Part shown: positions 13,135 through 25,482 of the stretch, in pieces
Position numbering within the stretch: the stretch's first letter is position 1
Layout of the letters: each line of letters begins with the position of its first letter
DNA from: Tichowtungia aerotolerans
GTDB lineage: Bacteria; Verrucomicrobiota; Kiritimatiellia; Kiritimatiellales; Tichowtungiaceae
Assembly (NCBI RefSeq): GCF_009905215.1
Contig: NZ_CP047593.1
Location: 3,414,900-3,478,899, forward strand
Reading direction: 5' to 3'
DNA: 64,000 nucleotides
Notes under the pieces: generated by a model
Seen by the model: the letters and a program-made list of their open reading frames with translations, nothing else
Databases searched by the model: none
Told to the model about the DNA's origin: nothing
Translations under genes and position numbers: made by a program

Positions 13135-13560
13135 ATGAAGAGAAAACAGAAAGCAGGGTTCACCCTGGTCGAACTGATGATCGTGGCTGCGATTATCGCA
13201 ATTCTGGCTGCGATTATCATTCCGCTTCTGTCGTCAAATCGTGATACCGCGATTGCCGCAGAGGCTCACAACCTGTGTGGAACGGTTGCTACAGCCTGTA
13301 AGGTTTATTATGCAAAAAACGGTGCAGGTCCTACCAGCACTGCTGATTTGCCGGCAACCACTCAAACCGAACTGGAAAATGCAAAATATTACGATGAGTC
13401 AGATATTGAGATTGACTGGACCAGCCCCGCGGCATGGACAATCACAGTAACCAGTGGAGCTAACGTTTACTCAACTGGAACCGCCGAGGATCTTACGCTG
13501 AATCAAGCAGGCACATGGGGAGGCTCGTTGGTTACCAAAGGAATTGCAGCAGCCAACTAA
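13135..13560 (+). CDS. Major pilin / GspG-like prepilin
   Basis: A 141-residue prepilin. The type III signal KAGFTLVELMIVAAI has the prepilin peptidase site G/F and Glu5; a hydrophobic helix follows and then a small globular domain of about 105 residues. The strong RBS AAGGAGG and a GC-rich hairpin just after the stop suggest higher expression than neighbours, so this is probably the main subunit. No prepilin peptidase gene is in the window. The globular domain lacks an obvious disulfide pair (Cys60 and Cys66 are close together), so it is not a classical PilA D-loop pilin. Confidence 0.88.
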   Translation: MKRKQKAGFTLVELMIVAAIIAILAAIIIPLLSSNRDTAIAAEAHNLCGTVATACKVYYAKNGAGPTSTADLPATTQTELENAKYYDESDIEIDWTSPAAWTITVTSGANVYSTGTAEDLTLNQAGTWGGSLVTKGIAAAN

Positions 13561-13569
13561 ACTATACTG

Positions 13570-13595
13570 CCCGCCCCGGTCAAGTCCGGGGCGGG
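13570..13595 (+). promoter_or_regulatory. GC-rich hairpin after the pilin gene
   Basis: A 10-bp perfect stem CCCGCCCCGG/CCGGGGCGGG with loop TCAAGT starts 9 bp after the pilin stop. There is no T-run, so it is not a canonical terminator. It may stabilise pilin mRNA or partly terminate ahead of pilM. Confidence 0.7.
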
Positions 13596-13619
13596 AGGTG
13601 CCCAGACGGAGATATTAGA

Positions 13620-14552
13620 ATGAGCAGTTTGAAAAGCATGCTGACCCGGGAACAGGTGGTTGGACTTGATATTAACGACGGTCAAATTACTGCCGCCTGG
13701 TTTCAGGCAGGAAATCTTCATGCCGGACTCAAAAATATAGTTTGCGGCGAATATTCTCCTGGAGTGGATGACCGTCATGTTGCCAAGGCAATCAGGGAAA
13801 TATGGCGCAAAGAAAAGATACCAACACGTACGGTTCAATCCTGCCTGCACAGCCGCAGTTTACTAATCCGTTATTTTAAATATGAAAATATCAGCCGGGA
13901 AGAACTGCCTAGAGTTCTTTCCCTGGAAGCAGAAGAAGCTTTGCAGTGCCCTATCGATGAAATTTCTCTGGACTGGCAATTAAATACGGAGCTGCCCTCG
14001 AATTCAAATGCTCAAAAACTATCAGGAACTCTGGTTGCCGCTCCTCGTCATAAAGTATTGCGTCACCTGAAATTAATAAAAATGGCCGGGCTTTATTCAG
14101 TGAATGTCCATGTAAGTTATTCGGCGCTGAACAACTTATACTCATGGTTAATGAAGGAACAGGATACCGAACCCGTTTGTCTGATCAACCTAACTCAAAG
14201 CTCGGTCGATATTGTCATGCATTCTGACAACAGCAATTATCCGCGCACTCTTTTTTCTGCAGAAACCGGATGGGAACACAACGGTTCTTATTTGCTGGAA
14301 AACATTCAAAACGCCCTGCTCTACTATCATCTCAAACTCAAACATGCTCCGATCAAACGGATTTTTTTGGCAGGACGTCTCTCTGGCCTTGATGAGTTCA
14401 AAAAAAATCTTTCTGAAGAAACATCTCTGCCTGTCAGCGAATTGGACATGTCTTCCATCCTGAAAATCAACAATAAGTTTCTCGCGGGGGACCGAGCCCG
14501 TAATCAGGCCACGGCAATTGGTTTGGGACTCAAAAGAGAGGTCGTACAATGA
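13620..14552 (+). CDS. pilM: PilM-like actin-fold pilus assembly protein
   Basis: A 310-residue cytoplasmic protein with an ASKHA-type layout: VVGLDINDGQITAAWF near the N-terminus and a C-terminal IKRIFLAGRLSG segment, as in PilM/GspL cytoplasmic domains. PilM normally binds the PilN N-terminus at the inner face of the membrane, linking the motor to PilNOP. Sequence similarity by eye is modest, and the call leans on position between the pilin and pilN-like genes. The ATG at 13620 begins after the hairpin; an in-frame upstream start at 13515 would overlap the pilin gene and is rejected. Confidence 0.75.
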   Translation: MSSLKSMLTREQVVGLDINDGQITAAWFQAGNLHAGLKNIVCGEYSPGVDDRHVAKAIREIWRKEKIPTRTVQSCLHSRSLLIRYFKYENISREELPRVLSLEAEEALQCPIDEISLDWQLNTELPSNSNAQKLSGTLVAAPRHKVLRHLKLIKMAGLYSVNVHVSYSALNNLYSWLMKEQDTEPVCLINLTQSSVDIVMHSDNSNYPRTLFSAETGWEHNGSYLLENIQNALLYYHLKLKHAPIKRIFLAGRLSGLDEFKKNLSEETSLPVSELDMSSILKINNKFLAGDRARNQATAIGLGLKREVVQ

Positions 14553-15145
14553 ACTGGTGTGAAATCAATCTAGCGCGAGACCTGATTTATTCCTCCAGAA
14601 AAAGACAGCGCGTGTACTGGATGATGATCCTCTATTTATGTGCTGCCGGCTGTCTGTTGGCAATTACCGCGGGGATTGCCACGCGACGTGTCCTAGAAGG
14701 ATTCGACTTCCACAGACAGGCTTTAAGAATCGAACAGCGATTCAGCAACACCCACCCGTCGGCATCGTCCATGCCTTCCTACGCTGAAGATTTAAATCAG
14801 ATTTTATTATCCGACCAGAACGCCGTTGAAGCTCTGGGGCAGGCACTGCCGGAGCAATTGCATACGACGCTTCCATTGATTGTTGCGATTTTAAGCCGCC
14901 CTGATAACGGCACCCTTCATAAACTCAGTTTTTCTCAGGAAACCAGCCAGGGCGACTCGGAACTTGTCTTCAGTATTCGAGTGCCGCTTGCTCAACGATC
15001 TCCACCCAGTTTTATTCAGCAATGGAACAAAGACAAGGCACTGAATCGCCAGTTTTCATCAATCACGCCTGTGACAACCCACAGAGAAAAAATTGGTGGA
15101 GAAGATGTTCTGATTATGAGTTATAAAGCGGTTTTCAGGGAGTAA
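14549..15145 (+). CDS. pilN: PilN-like inner-membrane assembly protein
   Basis: A 198-residue bitopic protein. Its N-terminus MNWCEINLARDLIYSS resembles the PilN motif INLLP that contacts PilM; one transmembrane helix follows (about 24-44) and then a periplasmic ferredoxin-like domain. The start overlaps the pilM stop by 4 bp (ATGA), as expected for tight coupling. The partner is the PilO-like protein encoded 3 bp downstream. Confidence 0.75.
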   Translation: MNWCEINLARDLIYSSRKRQRVYWMMILYLCAAGCLLAITAGIATRRVLEGFDFHRQALRIEQRFSNTHPSASSMPSYAEDLNQILLSDQNAVEALGQALPEQLHTTLPLIVAILSRPDNGTLHKLSFSQETSQGDSELVFSIRVPLAQRSPPSFIQQWNKDKALNRQFSSITPVTTHREKIGGEDVLIMSYKAVFRE

Positions 15146-15148
15146 CCA

Positions 15149-15688
15149 ATGGACAGCGCAAGGTTTATTAGAAATAAAACAATTATGAGCGCGTGGTTAG
15201 TAACTCCGTTGCTATTGACTGCTATTCTGGATCGCGCTGCATTCAGCTATCTGGAGCGTCAAAAAGTATCCTTTATTCGCAACCAGGCCCTCAAGAAAAT
15301 CATTCCTGAAATGACGGAGGCGGCAGAGAATTTCAATTCTTTCATCTTGCCGTACCAATCTGACGACAGCCAAACAACATCCGTTCAGGACAATATTATA
15401 CGACAAATCAATAATGCTGCTGGACGAGTCCCTCTCACTGTAACCGCAATTAAACTGAACCAGGATCTCATCGCCAAAGACCCCAGAACTGTCCGAATTG
15501 ACATGCTGGTAAAAGGAGAAGGTACCCCCCGCGAAATCACCGCATTCTTAAATCATATCAAAACGACCGATCCTCAGATCTTTGAAACCCGCATTTCAAT
15601 CATTCATACCGGCTGGGAAACATCGCTTTTTCAACTGGAAGCAGATCTCAGTCGCATTTATATCCAGCCTCATCGAGATAAAAAATGA
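15149..15688 (+). CDS. pilO: PilO-like inner-membrane assembly protein
   Basis: A 179-residue protein with one N-terminal hydrophobic segment (about 12-30), a helical region (35-75) and a C-terminal alpha/beta domain ending in a strand (WETSLFQLEADLSRIYI). This is the PilO/GspM layout. The match is by architecture and gene order rather than a strong motif. Together with PilN and PilP it would form the periplasmic alignment complex between platform and secretin. Confidence 0.65.
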   Translation: MDSARFIRNKTIMSAWLVTPLLLTAILDRAAFSYLERQKVSFIRNQALKKIIPEMTEAAENFNSFILPYQSDDSQTTSVQDNIIRQINNAAGRVPLTVTAIKLNQDLIAKDPRTVRIDMLVKGEGTPREITAFLNHIKTTDPQIFETRISIIHTGWETSLFQLEADLSRIYIQPHRDKK

Positions 15689-16170
15689 AACTGCCTTCGA
15701 AAACAATCTATTTGATCGTACTTGGCTTTATTGCCGCAGCATTGGTCTGCGTTATATTTGTTCAGAAAAGAAACCGGCTTCTTCAAAGCTCCCTGGCAAG
15801 CGGGCAGTACGAAGCCCAATATCTTTCTGTAGCAAACAGACTTAAAGAACAAATCGCCGATATGCAGATAAAACTACAGGGAAACCTGAGCGATGACCTT
15901 CAGATTCCTAAAGAAAAACACAACAAAAAACCTATGGAGGTTGCCGCAGATATAACCATTGTTGAACCGCCGATTAATATCTGTCTTTCAGGGATCTATC
16001 TCAGCCATATAATGCCATTGGCAGAGATCAATGGACGTCTGTGTAAGATTGGAGACCGCATCGGCAGTTTAACTCTGGAAGCAATTGATCATTATAAGAT
16101 CCGACTTAGTGACAACAACGGAGATATTCAGATTGTTCAATTAAACACCGTTGATGAGGCAGCCCAATGA
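15685..16170 (+). CDS. pilP: PilP/GspC-like periplasmic coupler
   Basis: A 161-residue protein with an N-terminal transmembrane anchor (about 7-25), a charged linker and a C-terminal small beta domain. ICLSGIYLSHIMPLAEINGR followed by CKIGDRIGSLTLEAID matches the homology-region style of GspC and PilP (a beta sandwich that binds the secretin N-domain). The start overlaps the pilO-like stop by 4 bp. It is most likely the link between inner-membrane PilNO and the secretin. Confidence 0.7.
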   Translation: MKLPSKTIYLIVLGFIAAALVCVIFVQKRNRLLQSSLASGQYEAQYLSVANRLKEQIADMQIKLQGNLSDDLQIPKEKHNKKPMEVAADITIVEPPINICLSGIYLSHIMPLAEINGRLCKIGDRIGSLTLEAIDHYKIRLSDNNGDIQIVQLNTVDEAAQ

Positions 16171-16577
16171 AACCGACTGTTAACAATACCGGAATTACAT
16201 TGATAGAAGTAATGTTGAGTATTGTCATTCTGGCAATCCTAGCGGTTGTTGCCGTAACGGCCCTGTTTTACCCAACCTATCTGGTTGTAATGAGCAGTAT
16301 TGAACAGTCCGCCATCAATGCCGGAAACACTGAAATTGAGGCACATTTGAATAATTATAAAAAACCAATTACTCAGGGAAGTTTTTATACCGATGGATGG
16401 ACCGTCAGCACAACAAATGACGTGGTCGATTACAACGACCTCCCTTCTGATTACGCCCCTGGAACTGGCGACAAAGTTAAGTATGTTCTAATCAAAACTA
16501 CCGTCGGATATCGAGACGGTCATTCTGTAGAACTGGTGACGTACCGATCTCTTGAAATATCATCATCTGAAAGATAG
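16167..16577 (+). CDS. Minor prepilin (PilV/GspI-like)
   Basis: A 136-residue prepilin with processing site and helix NTGITLIEVMLSIVILAILA (cleavage after G, Glu5 present), followed by a short globular domain. It overlaps the upstream gene by 4 bp. Minor prepilins of this size prime the fibre and sit at its tip. The class (V or I) cannot be fixed by eye. Confidence 0.8.
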   Translation: MKPTVNNTGITLIEVMLSIVILAILAVVAVTALFYPTYLVVMSSIEQSAINAGNTEIEAHLNNYKKPITQGSFYTDGWTVSTTNDVVDYNDLPSDYAPGTGDKVKYVLIKTTVGYRDGHSVELVTYRSLEISSSER

Positions 16578-16580
16578 CTC

Positions 16581-17045
16581 ATGAAAGCACAAACCAAATC
16601 ATCTCAAAAAGGGTTCAGCATTATTGAAGTAATGATCACGATCATTGTTGCTTCTGTGTTGGTTCTGATCGTCAGCATGATTCTGGTAATGACATTTACT
16701 TCCTGGAGAAACAATAATGCGTATACCGATATTCGCAGGGATCTCTCAATGGCATCCCTGATAATGATGCAAGAAATCCGAGAGTCTTCCTATGGCGGAT
16801 TAACCGTTGGCGAGGATTATTTGAACGTGGAAAGCGCAGCCACAAACAAGACGAGCGTTTTTTCACAAGTTGATGACTCTTTAGTTTATACATCAGAATG
16901 GGACACATTTATCCTGATTCCCCGCAACCTGCAGTCATTCAATGCTGTAAAACAAAATGACGGTGTCGAATTGACCCTCGTCGTTGCAAACACCGACTTT
17001 GCCATTTCTGTAACCAATCAACTTTTCGTAAATACCAGGAACTGA
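16581..17045 (+). CDS. Minor prepilin (PilW/GspJ-like)
   Basis: A 154-residue prepilin: QKGFSIIEVMITIIVASVLV gives the G/F cleavage site and Glu5, and RRDLSMASLIMMQEIRES resembles the region after the helix in PilW/GspJ proteins. It lies 3 bp after the previous prepilin and 2 bp before the PilX-like gene, consistent with the usual V-W-X order of minor pilin operons. Confidence 0.8.
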   Translation: MKAQTKSSQKGFSIIEVMITIIVASVLVLIVSMILVMTFTSWRNNNAYTDIRRDLSMASLIMMQEIRESSYGGLTVGEDYLNVESAATNKTSVFSQVDDSLVYTSEWDTFILIPRNLQSFNAVKQNDGVELTLVVANTDFAISVTNQLFVNTRN

Positions 17046-17047
17046 TT

Positions 17048-18331
17048 ATGCAAGTTAACCCCTCCCAAACAAAAAAAGGATCCACTCTCGTAATCGTTAT
17101 GATTATGGTCATTGCCTTTTCTCTGATGATCACTGCTCTTTTACAACTCGGGGCGTTGGGAGAGCAGGAAACCGTTAAGCAGCTTCGTATCAGCCAGGCG
17201 CACTGGCTGGCTGAAGCAGGATTGGAACGAGTCTTGAGCTGGGTGGCTGCCAGCAAAGACTTTCGGGAAGGTCTGAGTGGAAGCCCGCAAACATTCGGCC
17301 CCTACACCGAGCTGGCACCTGGCAAATATTCAGTTGAAGTATGGGAGTCTAACATCAGTAACATTACGATCCGCTCCACCGGAAGCACTGAGGTTGGAAC
17401 ACTTGATGATTCTGCAACCGTTCAATTAAGCTTTCGATATGCGTCCGGAATTCCAGGTGCCATTATTGGGTTAAACAATCCGGGGCATACCCATCTTGAT
17501 AAAGATGTGCTTATTATTGACGGAGATGTTTACAGAGATGGAACTCTTGATATTGAAGGAGATATTGTTTCGAACCAATCTGCATATGCGACATCGCCGC
17601 CAATCACCGGAGATGGATCTTTTACGGAAAACTATATCCCGGATCCTGACTCGCCTATTATTGATGCAGATGGACGATTCGCAGGGCTGATTAATTCCGC
17701 ATCAACACAAACGAATACGATATTCGAGGGGGCATTGTCCGGAACGATTTATGTTAATGGCGACCTTACATTAACGGAAGGAATCAGTGGAGCAGGAACG
17801 CTGGTTGTCTACGGGGATCTTATTTTTAATGGAAATGACCAGTCAGTCAGTGATGATGTTGAAATTGTCGTCGATGGAAATATCAGTTTCTCTCAACATA
17901 CGAGCTTGGGTGACAACGTCGAAGTCTTCTCTCAAAATGGAAACATCTGCCTACAGCACGATATCGACGGCGGTGCTGTGGCGCTAATTGCCAAAAACGG
18001 GAGTTTAGGCCATATTGATCCAGAATATGATAATACATTGGGAACGATTGACAAAGACCATATCCTAACAGCCGGGCATTCCATCGGGGATCAAAACCCG
18101 TCGAAACCTTCATTTGAAGGAGTTTTTTACGCCGAATATGACATTATTTTTCGCCATAAGGCCGATATTTACGGAAGCGTCATCGCTGGAAGGCATATGG
18201 AGATCGGACACTGCGCGTCACCGGGATCGATTAGCATCACCTATGATCCGAGTGTTTTCGATGAAGAGTGGCAGCTCGATTTTGGAAACAACATTGTGAT
18301 CATCAACAGCAATTGGAAGAGACTTTTATAA
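17048..18331 (+). CDS. PilX-like minor pilin with a long beta-rich tail
   Basis: A 427-residue protein. The N-terminus KKGSTLVIVMIMVIAFSL is a PilX-type prepilin signal without Glu5, and AHWLAEAGLERVLSW is the characteristic PilX/GspK segment that follows. The remaining 300 residues form many short G-D/N-G-rich strands (IIDGDVYRDGTLDIEGDIVS, GTIYVNGDLTLTEGISGAG, VVDGNISFSQHTSLGDN), looking like a right-handed beta-helix as in DUF7305-type PilX proteins. It would sit at the pilus tip and could be an adhesin. It is the last gene of the operon and overlaps the convergent SHD1-like gene by 6 bp. Confidence 0.75.
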   Translation: MQVNPSQTKKGSTLVIVMIMVIAFSLMITALLQLGALGEQETVKQLRISQAHWLAEAGLERVLSWVAASKDFREGLSGSPQTFGPYTELAPGKYSVEVWESNISNITIRSTGSTEVGTLDDSATVQLSFRYASGIPGAIIGLNNPGHTHLDKDVLIIDGDVYRDGTLDIEGDIVSNQSAYATSPPITGDGSFTENYIPDPDSPIIDADGRFAGLINSASTQTNTIFEGALSGTIYVNGDLTLTEGISGAGTLVVYGDLIFNGNDQSVSDDVEIVVDGNISFSQHTSLGDNVEVFSQNGNICLQHDIDGGAVALIAKNGSLGHIDPEYDNTLGTIDKDHILTAGHSIGDQNPSKPSFEGVFYAEYDIIFRHKADIYGSVIAGRHMEIGHCASPGSISITYDPSVFDEEWQLDFGNNIVIINSNWKRLL

Positions 18332-19111
18332 GAAATTGCTCCTGTAGTGCCATTCAATGCGAGGCAGCTTCGCCTTTTCAATGTTTTTCGTGAAATGGCG
18401 ACTGTATACCGATCCTCGTCCTTCGTATGCCAGTTTGCGGAGTTTTCTAACAGTAGTCGGCACATCTGACATCCAATCTTCGTTGCCGAGATCAGTCTTA
18501 TAGTCGACAATTTCCCCCTGAGGGTCCAATACGGTCACAATATAGCCCAGATATGTCCCTCCCCTCCATTTGGCGGCAGCAACAGCCCATCCAGCAAAAT
18601 ATCTGCGAATCGGGATGTCATTAACGACCCACTCTATCTGACTGTTTTTTCCTTCGGGAAAAACAAATTGCTTAGTAGCGTGTTCAATTAATATGTAATT
18701 GTCACCGTCTTCCTCGTCAGCAATGAAATAAAGCTCGGCAGTCAACTTGGCCTTGCTGTCCATATCACTCTTTTTTTCGAGCGTTATTTGACAGGTATAA
18801 AGCGTGGTTTTATCACCACTGATCGTCCATTCCATTTCAGGTTTCTGGCGGGATTTTTTTCTAACCGTAATATCTACTTCGGGTACAATTTTATGCTGGA
18901 GGTAATTCAGGTCGGCATTTGATAGTTTTTCAACAGGAATCATGCGGAGCTTATCCTCGGTATCCCGGACCTGAATTCGACCAAGAAGTTCTCTCACGAA
19001 CGTTCCTTCAAAGCGGGTGCCGTCCACATCCGTCCACATCCGAGCCCCTTCTGCAAGAGACACTACAGCAAAAACAGACGCAAAAATTATAGAATGTAAC
19101 GTTTTCATCAT
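18326..19111 (-). CDS. Exported SHD1-like domain protein
   Basis: A 261-residue protein with a signal peptide (about 1-23). The first domain (RMWTDVDGTRFEGTFVRELL, then IPVEKLSNADLNYL, about 24-72) matches the SHD1-like module frequent in secreted proteins of the PVC superphylum. The second half (75-261) is beta-rich and unassigned. It is the last gene of the leftward ExbB/ExbD cluster, 23 bp after the TonB-like gene, so it may be a periplasmic partner. Its 3' end overlaps the PilX-like gene by 6 bp. Function unknown. Confidence 0.65.
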   Translation of the reverse strand: MMKTLHSIIFASVFAVVSLAEGARMWTDVDGTRFEGTFVRELLGRIQVRDTEDKLRMIPVEKLSNADLNYLQHKIVPEVDITVRKKSRQKPEMEWTISGDKTTLYTCQITLEKKSDMDSKAKLTAELYFIADEEDGDNYILIEHATKQFVFPEGKNSQIEWVVNDIPIRRYFAGWAVAAAKWRGGTYLGYIVTVLDPQGEIVDYKTDLGNEDWMSDVPTTVRKLRKLAYEGRGSVYSRHFTKNIEKAKLPRIEWHYRSNFL

Positions 19112-19134
19112 AATCTTTTGGTAGGCAAAAGCGG

Positions 19135-20247
19135 TTAATATACATTGAAGAGTTGTCCACCAGTCAGGTCGGCCTCCCCTTCAATCATTGAATATGTAAT
19201 TTCATCAATCAGATGCTGAGGAATCTCTGCGGTTCTGAATACCGGGAGAATCGGAGCCCCGTCACGGTTTTTTGGATAGATTTCACCTTTTTTCTGAATG
19301 GTTACAGTACATTGAGTCCATGCACCGCCCGTATCACCAAAAACAATTTCAAAGTCAGCGGGTACGCCGGCTTCCAGCTCAAACCAATCCCCAACACCCA
19401 TCGGTCCGTGTCCTCGCCAGTACTTACGGTGCTCTTCTGCCGAGCCTCGCCAGTCAGACATCAGTGCGGCTGCTAATACATGACCGCCAGTCAACACAAC
19501 TTCCCCATTGACTCGAATAACACAGACATTTTCACCACGTCCCCAAAACCGGTACGTTCCGCTTTCTTTGGCAGCAAACTTACCCTTGTAATGAGCCATC
19601 CAGTTCAGAGTGTAGACTTCATCCGGAATCCCAAAACTTCGCGGAACAAATTCCGAAGCGGTCATCGGAATATAGAAAAAGGTTGTATAAAGCTTCTGCG
19701 GCGCCCGATAATACATCGAAAAAGAACGCGGATTCCACCCTGAGTCAAGAAAACGCCCGATTTCGCGATAATACTCATCTCCAACGGACTGACTGTTACG
19801 TTTGCCGCTGCGATCCAGGGTCAAAGCATAGAATGTCCCCTCAAAATCATTTCCAATGGATAATGAACTTTTTCCGCCGAAAAGACTCATATCCGCCGGA
19901 TCCGGCATCATTTCGAATCCTCCGACACCTCCTCCAAGGCCTTCGCTGATGCGGGATGTTTCGGGCAGCTGAATATTGGACATTCCCTGTATATTCCTAG
20001 ACGAGATCCGCTGGCTGGCCTTCGGCCTGGCCCGCTTTTTCACCTTAACCTTCGGCTTTTTGAGCTCGACCGTTTTTCTCTCAACCGGCGGCGGAGGCTC
20101 AAATTTCTGTTCCATTTTTTTGACGACAGTAAACACAACCATACCACCGGCTAACAACAGAATCGCTGCATGAATTCCTATGCTGACGAGAACCGCCGTA
20201 GGCGCCCCTTTAATCAAGCCTTTTGTTCGTTTGACCAATCGTTTCAT
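19135..20247 (-). CDS. TonB-like protein with a PA14-like C-terminal region
   Basis: A 370-residue inner-membrane protein. It has a basic N-terminus, one transmembrane helix (about 18-42) and then a Pro/Lys-rich stretch (EPPPPVERKTVELKKPKVKV), the TonB layout. The C-terminus is not a TonB domain: about 130-320 resembles a PA14-type beta module, with FYIPMTASEFVPRSFGIPDE, YKGKFAAKESGTYRFWGRG and VCVIRVNGEVVLTGG echoing the PA14 pattern of a strand with aromatic GxYxF followed by vNGk. It lies 2 bp after exbD2. I infer that it transmits the ExbBD proton force to a glycan or envelope ligand; this is not established. Confidence 0.7.
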   Translation of the reverse strand: MKRLVKRTKGLIKGAPTAVLVSIGIHAAILLLAGGMVVFTVVKKMEQKFEPPPPVERKTVELKKPKVKVKKRARPKASQRISSRNIQGMSNIQLPETSRISEGLGGGVGGFEMMPDPADMSLFGGKSSLSIGNDFEGTFYALTLDRSGKRNSQSVGDEYYREIGRFLDSGWNPRSFSMYYRAPQKLYTTFFYIPMTASEFVPRSFGIPDEVYTLNWMAHYKGKFAAKESGTYRFWGRGENVCVIRVNGEVVLTGGHVLAAALMSDWRGSAEEHRKYWRGHGPMGVGDWFELEAGVPADFEIVFGDTGGAWTQCTVTIQKKGEIYPKNRDGAPILPVFRTAEIPQHLIDEITYSMIEGEADLTGGQLFNVY

Positions 20248-20249
20248 GA

Positions 20250-20693
20250 CTACAAACTTTTACTAAATGTTAAACTGTCAACTTTTGCAGCAGCGCAGGC
20301 ATCCATAACCTCAATAATCCGACGATGCACCGTATCGTGATGAGGCAGAAGGTTCACAAAAAAAGGAGACTTCTGGGATTCGGCAACCTGTTTTAAGCCT
20401 TTGATGTGATTTACAAGATCGTCCAGTCGCGTATCTTCTGCCGCAAAACGCATACCTTCCAGGACCACTGTTGCATCCTCGTTGATCTCAATAACCGCCT
20501 CAACCGGAATCTCAATCTTCAAATTCGGATCAGAAACCGTAGCCGGCAGTACGAAGGAGATATCTCCTTCTTTTTTGATCAGCGAGGCGGTGACCATAAA
20601 ATAGATGAGCAGCAGGAACACCACGTCAATCAACGGCGCGATCTGAAGCTCCATCTTCGCTTCTCCTGCATTGTTTCGCTTGCTTAAATTCAC
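20250..20693 (-). CDS. exbD: ExbD/TolR-family protein (second copy)
   Basis: A 147-residue protein with one N-terminal transmembrane helix (about 18-42). The segment ELQIAPLIDVVFLLLIYFMV contains the proton-pathway Asp (LIDVVF), and a periplasmic domain follows. It works with ExbB as the stator-like proton channel. It is longer and sequence-divergent from the upstream copy, so the pair may form a heteromeric complex. Spacing is 20 bp to the upstream exbD and 2 bp to the TonB-like gene. Confidence 0.9.
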   Translation of the reverse strand: MNLSKRNNAGEAKMELQIAPLIDVVFLLLIYFMVTASLIKKEGDISFVLPATVSDPNLKIEIPVEAVIEINEDATVVLEGMRFAAEDTRLDDLVNHIKGLKQVAESQKSPFFVNLLPHHDTVHRRIIEVMDACAAAKVDSLTFSKSL

Positions 20694-20713
20694 GTCTCTC
20701 TCCTGCTAAACAT

Positions 20714-21127
20714 CTATTCCTCAAAGGCCGCAAAGATCAGGTCGTTCGCCCCCGCTTCCGCACAGGCCTCCATGATCTTCTCATTCGCGCCGTATTTCAC
20801 CTGCTTGTCCGCCCGGATGACGATCCGCAGCTCCGGGTCCGCCTCGATCTCCGACCTCAACCGGTCGGTGAGCTCTTCCAGTGCAACCAGATCCGAGGCC
20901 GGTCCAATGAACATCTCATCGTCTGCATTCACCGTGATCGCAAAACGACCCGTTTCGTCTTCCGGAACCTTCGCGTAAACCGCCGAAGGCACTTCAATCG
21001 GAACCTTGTCGATCTTGATCACCGCTGAAGCCACCAGAAAAAAGATCAGCAGAAGAAACACCAGATCGATCATGGGCGACATGTCGACGGCAACTTCATC
21101 GTCATTTCTTTTGGCATGAATTTTCAT
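20714..21127 (-). CDS. exbD: ExbD/TolR-family protein (first copy)
   Basis: A 137-residue protein: cytoplasmic N-terminus, transmembrane helix with AVDMSPMIDLVFLLLIFFLV (proton-pathway Asp in MIDLVF), then a periplasmic domain ending IMEACAEAGANDLIFAAFEE. It lies 28 bp after exbB. Two ExbD genes after one ExbB are common in PVC and Bacteroidota energy-transducing clusters. Confidence 0.93.
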   Translation of the reverse strand: MKIHAKRNDDEVAVDMSPMIDLVFLLLIFFLVASAVIKIDKVPIEVPSAVYAKVPEDETGRFAITVNADDEMFIGPASDLVALEELTDRLRSEIEADPELRIVIRADKQVKYGANEKIMEACAEAGANDLIFAAFEE

Positions 21128-21155
21128 GGTTCTTTCCCGTCAGAAGGCTCAGACA

Positions 21156-21929
21156 CTATTCATCACCCATTTGTTCAAGCGCTTCCACATCCATAAACGT
21201 CAGCGGTTTCTCTCCGGTTTCGAGAGCATCGAACAGGTAGCTGAGGTTACGGCCGAGGGTGGCCAGGGTTTTGTCGAAACGCTTTTTGAAGTAGAAGAAG
21301 AAGGCCATCGCCGGAATCGCGATGATCAGTCCGGTCGCGGTGGTGATCAGAGCCTCACCGATGTTCCCGGCGAGCACTTCCGGTTTACCCATTCCCTGTG
21401 TTCCCATGGTCTGGAAGGCCTTGATCATACCCATAACGGTACCGAGCAGCCCGAGCATCGGGGATGTTGCACCGATGATGGAGAGATAGTCGATCGGTTT
21501 CATCAGCTGGGTCATCTGTTCAACCGAGGCTTCTTCAACCGCTTCATGTACTTTATCAAAGCTGACTTCACCTTTCATGCAGCGCTCAAGTCCGGCGGCA
21601 AAGGTGTTGGTGAACATGGAGGGATGCTTGCGGCAGTAGATCAGCGCATGACGAACCTTCTTGGAGAGCATCATCTCGAGAAGCTCCGGAAGCATTTCAG
21701 TGTGCAGCAGGGTCTTTTCACGCAGGGAGAAAAAGTTCTGCACGATGAAGGTCACCATCGCAAAGGAGAGGATCCCCAGAGGAATCATGGTGATACCACC
21801 GGTTTTGATCAACTGCCACAGCGTGGCGTTCTCGGTCGTCAGCGCCGCAGCTTCCGGAGCCGCCTCCTGCCCAAAGACCACCCCTGCCGCTCCAAGCAGC
21901 ACCATGATTGCAATTCCTGTCTTCTTCAT
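21156..21929 (-). CDS. exbB: ExbB/TolQ/MotA-family proton channel
   Basis: A 257-residue protein that starts with a cleavable-looking signal peptide (MKKTGIAIMVLLGAAGVVFG), then has three transmembrane helices: about 45-65, then the MotA/TolQ/ExbB core with TSPMLGLLGTVMGMIKAF and ITTATGLIIAIPAMAFFFYF. Thr and Gly residues in these helices form the proton pathway with ExbD. The ATG at 21929 follows GGAGGAAAC; the in-frame ATGs up to 21947 would include that RBS as coding sequence and are rejected. It follows the small repeat protein gene by 14 bp. Confidence 0.93.
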   Translation of the reverse strand: MKKTGIAIMVLLGAAGVVFGQEAAPEAAALTTENATLWQLIKTGGITMIPLGILSFAMVTFIVQNFFSLREKTLLHTEMLPELLEMMLSKKVRHALIYCRKHPSMFTNTFAAGLERCMKGEVSFDKVHEAVEEASVEQMTQLMKPIDYLSIIGATSPMLGLLGTVMGMIKAFQTMGTQGMGKPEVLAGNIGEALITTATGLIIAIPAMAFFFYFKKRFDKTLATLGRNLSYLFDALETGEKPLTFMDVEALEQMGDE

Positions 21930-21943
21930 CGTTTCCTCCATTC

Positions 21944-22309
21944 TCATTCCGCCTGTACGGACTCTTCTTCGGTTAACCGGTTGATCTCTTCCAGAAGCTT
22001 CTGCGCTTCTGTTGCAAATTCAGTTTCTGGGTAAAGCAATGTAATCTGACGAGCCGTAACTTCTGCGGACGTCAACGCCCCCTGCTTCAGATACAGCTCA
22101 GCACTCAGCACCTCACTTTTTGCAAGCCACTCTTCTTCCTGAGGATTCAGCGCAATACCTTTGCCCACTTCTTCGATTGCGGCAGCCACATCGTTTTGAT
22201 CTCTCAAAAGAACGGCTTTTTTATAGTGCGCTGCAACGGCAGGCTCTTCATCTGCTGCCCAAGTCAATGCAAACGCTGTCAGCACAATGCAGAAAAGTAT
22301 ATGTTTCAT
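21944..22309 (-). CDS. Small exported TPR-like protein
   Basis: A 121-residue protein with a signal peptide (MKHILFCIVLTAFALTWA) followed by about two and a half helical repeats (YKKAVLLRDQNDVAAAIEEV, then AELYLKQGALTSAEVTARQI) of TPR character. It lies 2 bp after the giant TPR gene and 14 bp before exbB. It is probably a periplasmic scaffold partner of the Exb complex; no enzymatic motif is seen. Confidence 0.75.
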   Translation of the reverse strand: MKHILFCIVLTAFALTWAADEEPAVAAHYKKAVLLRDQNDVAAAIEEVGKGIALNPQEEEWLAKSEVLSAELYLKQGALTSAEVTARQITLLYPETEFATEAQKLLEEINRLTEEESVQAE

Positions 22310-22311
22310 GA

Positions 22312-25300
22312 TTAGAGTTCCTCCGATTCGACAGTAACCGTCAGGTTGGTTTGAATTCCGGCAGCCATTTTTTCATTAATCTCACGGACTTCAGCCGGTC
22401 CGAGAGCCTGACGAGCCACGTCGGCCTGAGGCAGCTCATTCACATATTTGTCGTAAAGCATTGCACGATATGTATTTCTCATATCGACATCTCGTCCCAG
22501 TTTCTGCAGGCAGCGTGCACTTGCCAGATATCCTTCGGCAGCCCAGTACCCGCCTGCATGACCTTTATACATGAAATAGGTTCTCTGGTACCACGCAAAG
22601 GCTTTTTTAAGATTACCGGCTTTTTCTTCCGTTTCTCCCAGGTAATAACAAGCCTCGGCATACGGTTCACCCCTCCACGCACGAATTGTCAGAATCATTT
22701 TAAAGGACTCACGAGCTGTGTCCGTATTGCCCTGCTCGAGCTCAATGCGACCTTTCATTACCTGAGCCCATGCTGTATCTACATCAACTCCGTAAAGTCC
22801 CTGTGCGTCCGAGACAATCTTCAGGGCCTCGTCATAGCTTCCTTTTTCAAACAGATCGTACGCGCGCAGTTTGTAGGCGGCCCGCATATATTCAGATTCT
22901 TCAAACTGATCCATGAATATTTTCAGAATTTCTTCGGCTCGGGAATAGTCTTCGTTAGCAAATGAAGCATCACAAATAACGGCCAGAACCGGTGGCGGAG
23001 CCCCGTTTAAAGTTTCCAGCTCATTGATCAGAGTGTCGCCAAGCTCGATTTTTTTATCATCCATTTCTGCCAGCATGACTCGGAGTCGTAATTGCAGTGT
23101 GGGATTTTCAGACGATGCCAGTGCTGATTCCAGACGTTTTCTCAACTGATCCTGATCGTCCTGCTCCAGTCGGCGAGCCGTGTTCATCAGTTCAGAAATA
23201 ATCAAGTCCACGCCATCCTGCCGAACATCATCACCATATTTTAAAATAGTATCCAGATAGGCATCAATAGCTTCACCGACCAACCCCTGCTCCAGCTTTA
23301 TTTTTCCAAGCCAGTATGCGGCTTTGGCCACATCGGCTTCTTCGCCGTACGTATCCAGATAATTATTGACCAGCTCAATAATCTCATCATTTTTACTGTC
23401 CAGCTCATATACGGCGGCCATCTGGAACGTTGCATACGTTGCCTGGGCAACTTTTTTGGCAGTTCTGATTGCTTCACGGTAATCGCTCACCGCATCTTTC
23501 AAATTGCCTTCATAATCCTGAGACGCCCGAATATCTCCGCGCATGCTGCAGGCATCGGGATAAACTGCTGAGGCAGGATACGTATCAATTACATAGGTGA
23601 AACGTTCGTTTGCCTCTTCATATTTTTCCTGCCCAAAGAGGCAGATTCCGCCCTGGAACCATGCTGAAGAAACCCAGTTCCCCTTAGGGAAATGCCCCAG
23701 ATAGTACTCAAATTCATCATACGCGAGTGAATAATTCTGAAGGAACATCTGCGTCATAGCGTGCCAGTACCGCACGTTGTCTTCCTGATGAGATTTTGGG
23801 AATTTATCAAGAACCAGATCAAAGCCCTGCAGAGCATCTTTATAATTCAGGAGCATCAGGTCTGCAATTGCCTGCATATAGTATAGCTCGCACCCGTATT
23901 GTTCCGCCATCAGCTTATCCGCTGCAGGCAGGCTGTCTGCGGAGGTAAATCCTTCCAGATAAGGACGTAGCTCCTTGATCTTTTTGAATTTTTCCTGTTT
24001 CTGATACGCAGCGGTTAAATAGTACGCCACCTGACGGGGCATCGTGCCATCCTTGTGCTCATCCAGAAAAGCAAAACACCGTTTTTCCATACGATCATAC
24101 AGCTCCAGCTTGGAGAGAACCTGGATTGCATCACAGAATGCTCTTGAACCTCGCTCTCCGTCTGGATCGCGAGATGTCGTGAGATCAAATGCCCCCAGAG
24201 CTTCCCATGGACGACCGCATTCATAATAGAGTTGGCCTACGCGATAGACCACATCATCCTCATACGGAGGCAGAGAAAGCAGTGTTCCAATGGACTCTTC
24301 GAGTTCGGCAAGCCCCGGCGGCATCTCAATTCCCAAAGCTTGCGGCGCGCCCTCTCCTTCAAAAGAGGCTTCCGCATATTTGTATCCAAGGAGACTTTCC
24401 ACCTTACCATTATCATTGGTGGATAAAGCGATCTGCATTTCGCGCATGCCGGAATTTCGGCGTAATTCGTTTGCTTTCTCTAAATGGAAGTCCGCCAGCG
24501 CACGACGAGGAAGAATCATGCGATAAAGCATTAAGGCGCTGTCGTATTCGGCCACATTGAACAGAGCAGAAGCGGCATTCATCATGGCCATATTTACACG
24601 AATATCATACCGCACATCTGTGTTTGCCAGATCTACAATCTGCTTCCGAACCTGATCATATTCACCCAGATTACTGAGCGCAGTGACCAGTTTCATAATC
24701 GCATACCCGCGCCGTGGCATTTTGTCTGCGTTTTCAATCACATACTCATAAGGATCAACGCACAACTTCCATTTTTTCAACCCGGCATAAGATTCAGCCA
24801 GCGTTAAATTAAGCAAGACTTTATCCGGAACTGTATACTCAGGTTCCTCTTGCGGTTTATCAGCAGAAATTTCAGTAAAAAACTCATCTTTGTATTCTTC
24901 CGCTTCTTCCTGATAGCGCTTGAGCTGACGTTTTGTCAGCCCCCCCCGATCCTCTTTGTCCAGATCATCAATTTTGACTTCTTCCACCTCTTCTTCTTCT
25001 TCAACTTCCGGTGGTGGCGCAAAAGCATTGGTCACTGCAGCAATGCTTTTTTCATAATTCTTAGATTCAAAATAGCTGACCGCCAGCGATTTGAGTACTT
25101 CGCGACGGCGATAAATCGGCTTGGAATTCATGTACTGTTCAAAATAGGTCTGGGCCTGTTCTGAATCGCCAATTAAAATTCCGGTTTTTCCAAGCTTGAA
25201 ACGCACATCCTGCATCAAAGCGAGAACCCGTTTGTCATCGGATTCTTTCATGCGCTCCAGATAATCTTTCAGATAGGGTACTGCAGCAGTGTAGTTCTGT

Positions 25301-25482
25301 TGCTTCATGAGCAGACCGGCTTCGGACAGCAGACCGCTGGCACTCATTTCAGAGCGAATCTCTTCGGGAGACTTTTGCTCAACAATTTCTCTGGCCATTG
25401 CAGATGTGCTCAGCAACAGAATTGCCCCTGCCCGAATCAGGATTCGATGTTGGAAGACGTGACATCTCATTGCTTTTATCAT
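22312..25482 (-). CDS. Giant exported TPR protein
   Basis: A 1056-residue protein with an N-terminal signal peptide (ends about LSTSAMA, residue 30). An acidic coiled stretch lies at about 160-200 (EVEEEEEVEEVKIDDL, then KEDRGGLTKRQLKRYQEEAE). Many TPR units run through to the C-terminus (for example VVYRVGQLYYECGRPWEALG, YFLGHFPKG-type, ACYYLGETEEKAGNLKKAFA). This is a long periplasmic superhelical scaffold. It is the first gene of the leftward operon (AAGGA before the ATG), upstream of exbB-exbD-exbD. In PVC and Bacteroidota genomes such proteins accompany ExbBD systems, but the ligand is unknown. Confidence 0.88.
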   Translation of the reverse strand: MIKAMRCHVFQHRILIRAGAILLLSTSAMAREIVEQKSPEEIRSEMSASGLLSEAGLLMKQQNYTAAVPYLKDYLERMKESDDKRVLALMQDVRFKLGKTGILIGDSEQAQTYFEQYMNSKPIYRRREVLKSLAVSYFESKNYEKSIAAVTNAFAPPPEVEEEEEVEEVKIDDLDKEDRGGLTKRQLKRYQEEAEEYKDEFFTEISADKPQEEPEYTVPDKVLLNLTLAESYAGLKKWKLCVDPYEYVIENADKMPRRGYAIMKLVTALSNLGEYDQVRKQIVDLANTDVRYDIRVNMAMMNAASALFNVAEYDSALMLYRMILPRRALADFHLEKANELRRNSGMREMQIALSTNDNGKVESLLGYKYAEASFEGEGAPQALGIEMPPGLAELEESIGTLLSLPPYEDDVVYRVGQLYYECGRPWEALGAFDLTTSRDPDGERGSRAFCDAIQVLSKLELYDRMEKRCFAFLDEHKDGTMPRQVAYYLTAAYQKQEKFKKIKELRPYLEGFTSADSLPAADKLMAEQYGCELYYMQAIADLMLLNYKDALQGFDLVLDKFPKSHQEDNVRYWHAMTQMFLQNYSLAYDEFEYYLGHFPKGNWVSSAWFQGGICLFGQEKYEEANERFTYVIDTYPASAVYPDACSMRGDIRASQDYEGNLKDAVSDYREAIRTAKKVAQATYATFQMAAVYELDSKNDEIIELVNNYLDTYGEEADVAKAAYWLGKIKLEQGLVGEAIDAYLDTILKYGDDVRQDGVDLIISELMNTARRLEQDDQDQLRKRLESALASSENPTLQLRLRVMLAEMDDKKIELGDTLINELETLNGAPPPVLAVICDASFANEDYSRAEEILKIFMDQFEESEYMRAAYKLRAYDLFEKGSYDEALKIVSDAQGLYGVDVDTAWAQVMKGRIELEQGNTDTARESFKMILTIRAWRGEPYAEACYYLGETEEKAGNLKKAFAWYQRTYFMYKGHAGGYWAAEGYLASARCLQKLGRDVDMRNTYRAMLYDKYVNELPQADVARQALGPAEVREINEKMAAGIQTNLTVTVESEEL

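Follow-up and report, generated by a model that had tools for sequence, protein, structure and literature searches.

A PA14-headed TonB-like transducer encoded with an ExbB-ExbD-ExbD motor in Tichowtungia aerotolerans

The window analysed here, a stretch of 64,000 nucleotides at positions 3,414,900-3,478,899 of the Tichowtungia aerotolerans genome (3.88 Mb, single contig), carries on its minus strand an operon of seven co-directional open reading frames (ORFs) running from 25482 to 18326, which encode, in this order, two tetratricopeptide repeat (TPR) proteins, an ExbB, two ExbDs, a TonB-like transducer and an SHD1 protein (Table 1). Operon genes are given in window positions, while a second operon and the loci L058 and L006, discussed below, are given in genome positions. 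The spacing along the operon is 2, -4, 28, 20, 2 and 23 bp. An original prediction for this DNA had described seven co-directional genes with gaps of 2-28 bp, which holds apart from the single 4-bp overlap. The motor genes belong to the MotA_ExbB and ExbD families and retain the transmembrane (TM) aspartate and the conserved TM2/TM3 segments, and the ExbB can be aligned with TolQ/ExbB structures over both conserved TM segments, GLxGTV and EALxxTAxGL. The proposed export of the TPR and SHD1 proteins agrees with their N-termini, which, read by eye, appear signal-like.

Table 1. Genes of the operon in window positions, listed in transcriptional order
Product	Position	Strand	Basis
TPR protein, 1056 aa, predicted to be exported (signal-like N-terminus); gene 1	22312..25482	-	ORF; TPR/YbgF-type repeat matches
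Small TPR protein, 121 aa, predicted to be exported (signal-like N-terminus)	21944..22309	-	ORF; TPR matches, E 7e-5; second gene kept in relatives
ExbB/TolQ-type proton channel, 263 aa	21156..21947	-	PF01618, E 4e-30; aligns to TolQ/ExbB structures
ExbD/TolR no. 1, 137 aa, TM aspartate (..PMIDLVFLLL..)	20714..21127	-	PF02472, E 1e-25; aligns to ExbD 6tyi
ExbD/TolR no. 2, 147 aa, GTG start, TM aspartate (..PLIDVVFLLL..)	20250..20693	-	PF02472, E 1e-16
TonB-like transducer, 370 aa	19135..20247	-	TM helix 17-42, basic/Pro linker 43-127, PA14 fold 127-369
SHD1 and immunoglobulin (Ig)-like beta-sandwich protein, 261 aa, predicted to be exported (signal-like N-terminus)	18326..19111	-	SHD1 matches; AlphaFold2 (AF2) model

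The sixth gene encodes the protein on which the interpretation of the operon depends. It had been described as TonB-like, with a membrane anchor and a Pro/Lys linker, and both elements were recovered: behind a short basic tail, which is its whole cytoplasmic part, the TM helix carries a motor-binding pair, S22-xxx-H26, of which Ser22 is present in 55 of the 56 aligned relatives and His26 in all of them, and a basic, proline-containing linker follows. Such a Ser/His pair forms the docking residues of TonB and TolA on their motors (PMC12204202). Since the motor residues and the S-xxx-H anchor are both conserved, a proton-driven transducer is supported. Additionally, the linker contains a segment, PKMKLKKPKVKVKK, of conserved alternating basic and hydrophobic residues with prolines on both sides, which is reminiscent of the D-box described in PMC10907165.

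The TonB C-terminal domain (PF03544) was detected in this transducer by neither Pfam nor NCBIfam, and the protein is absent from the PF03544 matches of the genome. PF07691, the PA14 family, reached 13.5 bits against a cut-off of 24, below threshold (a Pfam hint of 0.06), and a sequence-only profile search of the PDB returned no true match; the PA14 head of a relative from the phylum (L175) clears the Pfam PA14 cut-off at 24.6 bits. The fold became clear from structure prediction. The AF2 model, for which the alignment of the 56 relatives served as input, has a mean predicted local distance difference test (pLDDT) score of 83.4, with values above 90 across most of residues 120-365. The leading Foldseek matches of the head are PA14 domains, with 6m8m at the top (E 5e-8), and the best VIA-align match is a PA14 carbohydrate-binding domain (Z 12.6, root-mean-square deviation (rmsd) 3.2 over 162 residues, approximately residues 127-369). 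The proposal that a PA14-like domain takes the place of the TonB domain was thereby confirmed, as a canonical TonB fold was looked for at the C-terminus and the PA14 fold was found instead. Support for the architecture of this PA14-headed system is strong.

The structural matches that come next are Marinomonas PA14 sugar complexes, PA14-bearing anti-sigma proteins and yeast flocculins. The head shares its fold with the carbohydrate-binding PA14 domains of RTX adhesins from bacteria (6m8m, 5j6y) and of the flocculins; unlike them, it sits in the periplasm at the tip of a linker anchored in the membrane. Clostridial anti-sigma proteins have PA14 domains that rank among the top structural matches (Z 11.4), and these, together with the many dispersed transducer copies described below, would fit a role in sensing or regulation, in which glycans outside the cell or in the periplasm would be reported by the PA14 arm, a sensor gated or reset by the ExbBD motor, much as polysaccharide is sensed by PA14-bearing anti-sigma factors. 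However, the transducer has no cytoplasmic output domain, and no regulator is conserved beside most of the orphan transducers, that is, the copies encoded away from an ExbB gene, so that such a role is regarded as quite improbable.

With respect to ligand recognition, a calcium-binding Asp-Asp pair is expected in calcium-dependent PA14 lectins, and its place in the transducer was assigned by sequence only. This pair is kept in 34 of the 56 relatives, whereas Glu-Asn occupies the position in the window copy; among the other copies of the same genome, Asp-Asp occurs only in the second operon copy and Asp-Asn in one orphan. Asn280 was considered as a second calcium ligand coupled to Asp-Asp and was discarded, as the association was not significant (23/34 versus 11/22, p 0.26). 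Mean entropy is 0.81 bits in residues 43-80 versus 1.73 in the PA14 domain, and variability peaks at residues 151-170 and 251-270, the latter directly past the Asp-Asp hairpin. This contrast between linker and head points to a constant handle carrying a variable head.

The last gene of the operon supplies what appears to be a regular partner of this head. The SHD1 Pfam match of the window protein is sub-threshold (0.0013), and 39 of 52 relatives match the family, the best at 8e-10; its AF2 model has a pLDDT of 87.5, and the SHD1 part fits 2hbp with an rmsd of 1.9. Of 79 transducer copies, 53 carry the SHD1-Ig module as a fusion and 20 have it next door (73/79 in all), and two of the six that lack the pairing stop at contig edges. 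So regular an association suggests that a single periplasmic arm is formed by PA14 and SHD1-Ig together. A likeness of the Ig-like beta-sandwich of the SHD1 partner to other proteins, including the MUL2A protein Amuc_1102, was set aside as not meaningful, many Ig-like domains being matched at Z <9.

A second line of evidence places the operon beside a recently described platform. Force transducers with von Willebrand factor A (vWA) heads were reported by Williams-Jones et al. 2025 in bacteria of the Planctomycetes-Verrucomicrobia-Chlamydiae (PVC) group, starting from T. aerotolerans itself and citing His35, and are encoded after TPR, TolQ-like and paired TolR-like genes (PMC12204202). In the main text of that paper there is no mention of PA14, and the literature matches for TonB with PA14 were mostly to a Pseudomonas strain of that name. 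The corresponding locus, L058 (3,745,000-3,764,999), encodes TPR proteins, an ExbB, two ExbDs, two vWA transducers of 474-476 aa and a 781-aa protein, and its 474-aa protein has His35, matching the vWA protein of that study (PMC12204202). VWA hints came from a relative and from the 781-aa paralogue, which seems to hold two vWA transducer-type domains. The anchor and linker of the PA14 transducer align with those of the vWA transducers by hhalign at a probability of 99.1 (E 9e-19, 33% identity over 89 columns), and the window ExbB and that of the vWA system in this genome are sisters (96/92), apart from the TonB-linked ExbBs found there. These homologous anchors and sister ExbBs indicate that the PA14 system is a second, PA14-headed variant of the vWA transducer class.

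The two systems share a TM helix with a motor-binding His, a disordered linker, a globular head other than TonB and a gene position behind TPR, TolQ-like and paired TolR-like genes; they differ in that the head here has the PA14 and not the vWA fold, and that the PA14 system has a near-obligate SHD1 partner or fusion and has expanded to 7-30 copies in a genome, most of them not beside the motor. Therefore, what is new relative to the known platform is another head, the SHD1 partner and a large expansion. The original prediction had raised the possibility of a distinct envelope machine, a view qualified by the vWA sister class, which has the same TPR-TolQ-TolR-TolR synteny (PMC12204202), so that the system does not stand alone.

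A search of the T. aerotolerans genome for transducer copies returned seven full transducers, and ExbB adjoins only the window copy and the copy at genome 3,243,696. The window copy groups with the five orphans in a single clade (support 100/99), which indicates a lineage-specific expansion; Pontiella relatives have up to about 30 transducer matches per genome, and several same-genus genomes have no copy. The transducer family is thus multicopy and scattered, and it is bound up with the SHD1 module, a finding that goes beyond the original prediction. The second motor-linked copy belongs to a second PA14 operon, and a blastn comparison of window 20542..22009 (-) with genome 3,241,931-3,243,398 gave one mismatch in 1468 bp (99.93%). 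Within this near-identical tract lie the complete exbB and exbD1 genes and the first part of exbD2; the genes on either side of it diverge far more, and the tract is best read as a candidate gene conversion holding the motor core uniform. A further ExbB gene, with two distinct ExbD genes behind it, lies at L006 (~1,308,000).

A survey of neighbourhoods showed that gene order is conserved in relatives, which removes the second ground on which the original prediction could have been refuted. The order TPR-TPR-ExbB-ExbD-ExbD-transducer(-SHD1) recurs across Kiritimatiellales, and other Verrucomicrobiota families have the same arrangement without SHD1, with all of its genes present in L176 and L182; at L175, a second TonB-like gene sits between the motor and the PA14 transducer. 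Of 388 genomes of the phylum, 75 gave PA14 relatives in a profile search, and not all of these relatives are transducers. Some are secreted PA14 proteins that have neither anchor nor linker, often stand in tandem and are close in sequence to the transducer heads (L156, L158, L160 and L161). Additionally, Akkermansiaceae PA14 relatives in Akkermansia-type genomes (L168, L172) have a TM anchor without S-xxx-H and are encoded apart from motor genes, and are perhaps uncoupled from the motor.

The window was found to contain no TonB-dependent-receptor plug, as had been stated for the vicinity of the operon; the three plugs of the genome lie elsewhere, and 0-5 plugs per genome were counted among the genomes of the order examined. 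The operon shares with TonB-ExbB-ExbD the ExbB and ExbD families, the proton-path aspartates, the S-xxx-H anchor and the Pro/basic linker, and with three plug receptors in the genome the transducer might be conceived as an unusual TonB serving these few receptors. On the other hand, the window system differs from TonB-ExbB-ExbD in its two different ExbDs, its TPR scaffolds, the missing TonB_C domain and the missing neighbouring receptor. The PA14 fold, the existence of separate TonB_C genes and the fact that transducer number does not rise with plug number once genome size is accounted for make this explanation highly improbable. As a separate observation, TonB_C matches above the Pfam cut-off are located at genome 2811342 and 770683. 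These TonB candidates contrast with the naming of T. aerotolerans as an organism without discernible TonB and TolA (PMC12204202).

The largest protein of the operon bears on two other explanations. Homologues of the 1056-aa TPR protein occupy the equivalent place in L057, L059, L061, L062, L080, L090 and L141, and more distant ones the same place in L176, L179 and L182. The operon resembles Tol-Pal (TolQ-TolR-TolA) in its motor type and in the CpoB/YbgF-like TPR repeats of this large scaffold, and differs in that TolB, Pal and the TolA C-terminal domain are not in it. A Tol-Pal-like tether can thus be envisaged, in which the arm holds an outer-membrane lipoprotein, or wall or surface glycan belonging to the cell itself, while the motor pulls the outer membrane in or drives constriction or motility. 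The lack of a nearby receptor and the CpoB/YbgF-type repeat matches are compatible with it, as are the motility-like roles suggested for the vWA sister class (PMC12204202); however, 10-30 diverged paralogues with variable heads suit a diversity of ligands better than one housekeeping tether, and such a tether is hard to reconcile with several same-genus genomes having no copy, which leaves it a less likely but serious rival. The big TPR scaffold and a weak PorW/SprE match of the large TPR protein (E 1e-8) could also recall a secretion or surface-display motor, loosely GldLM-like (type 9 secretion), whose PA14-SHD1 arms would pass cargo to the outer membrane; since that match is far under the cut-off, the TPR similarity is generic and no further secretion component is seen among the conserved genes, little probability is given to this possibility.

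We judge, with moderate confidence, that the motors pull PA14-SHD1 arms which engage glycans or outer-membrane partners during polysaccharide uptake. Proton flow through a 5:2-type motor, composed of an ExbB ring and two different ExbD-type subunits and accompanied by large periplasmic TPR scaffolds, would move the transducer, whose membrane helix would dock on the motor via S-xxx-H and whose linker would cross the periplasm, the PA14 head working jointly with the SHD1-Ig module. Through the conserved anchor, many interchangeable PA14-SHD1 arms encoded at other loci are probably driven by the one or two motors that a genome has. In the likeliest use, the heads of these arms would attach to glycans, or to outer-membrane partners that handle glycans, and be pulled by the motor while large polysaccharides are captured or brought into the periplasm. 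What the data show directly is the gene set, the predicted folds, the conserved motor and anchor residues, the homology to the vWA transducers, the copy number, the SHD1 pairing and the kept gene order; that the transducer passes on force, that motors are shared, that the heads bind glycans and that the system takes part in uptake is what we infer, the last of these indirectly, because PA14 lectin-like features occur in most relatives, the heads are variable in organisms rich in polysaccharide-degrading enzymes, and an Akkermansia operon offers an analogy.

The Verrucomicrobiota and Kiritimatiellota break down mucin and large sulfated polysaccharides, which some of them import whole. Motor-coupled PA14 arms, present in tens of copies and with homologues elsewhere in the phylum, are a candidate for the missing force-coupled step in genomes with few receptors, and offer a testable idea of how polysaccharide-eating bacteria manage big sugars with few classical uptake receptors. 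The PA14 system also extends the idea that 5:2 proton motors power heads beyond TonB and TolA, the head being exchangeable on a conserved anchor. A broader version for Verrucomicrobiota, in which a large swappable set of lectin-like PA14-SHD1 arms (and of vWA arms) is driven by one or two shared ExbB-ExbD-ExbD-TPR motors to draw polysaccharides through the envelope, taking over much of the work done in Bacteroidota by SusCD/TonB-dependent transporters, can be put forward only tentatively.

Regarding the analogy with Akkermansia, its operon has ExbB-ExbD-ExbD and then a 1101-aa TPR gene, the gene types of the window operon in another order. We take this operon to be mucin utilization locus 1 (MUL1; Amuc_0543-0548 region). 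It differs from the window operon in having no PA14 transducer, the Akkermansia PA14 homologue being encoded elsewhere with a TM helix that lacks S-xxx-H and its His. Amuc_0546 is listed as a biopolymer transporter (PMC11480725), and MUL pili and a periplasmic complex are required for mucin transport (PMC12928651; PMC12418764).

Several observations weigh against uptake driven by these arms. The Akkermansia MUL1 ExbB lies on a long branch with weak placement and is not grouped with the window motor. The full E. coli SHLS pattern is not present in the transducer anchor, where invariant Ala33 and Val37 stand in place of Leu and Ser, and no D-box strand is predicted by AF2 after the TM helix. Besides the Glu-Asn of the window copy, four of the genome's five orphans lack an acidic pair where the lectin site would be, and because this pair is missing, direct calcium-dependent sugar binding by the window copy and these orphans is doubtful. 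The original prediction, that proton-driven force passes to a glycan- or wall-binding module rather than to a receptor, is accordingly upheld as regards the proton-driven transducer, while glycan or wall binding stays conjectural. Transducer copy number tracks genome size, and its partial rank correlation with sulfatases is -0.01 to 0.27 with size accounted for, the sulfatase counts being first-look candidates for which up to 32 per genome were scored. Sulfatases are not clearly enriched beside the orphans either (51/495 within six genes versus 7/107 beyond). A sulfatase link was rejected, since the correlation all but disappeared after genome-size correction and the enrichment beside orphans was unconvincing.

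Two further features of the locus were observed. A 302-aa open frame at 21126-22034 (+) lies antisense to exbB and exbD, and similar frames occur opposite exbB in relatives; it is probably an effect of codon usage, which may mask exbB for simple gene callers. Convergent with the operon, and overlapping its last gene by 6 bp, are genes at 13515-18331 (+) labelled by eye as PilM/PilN/PilO-like and pseudopilin-like; they were considered as operon partners and dropped, because this adjacency is not kept beside the operon in relatives.

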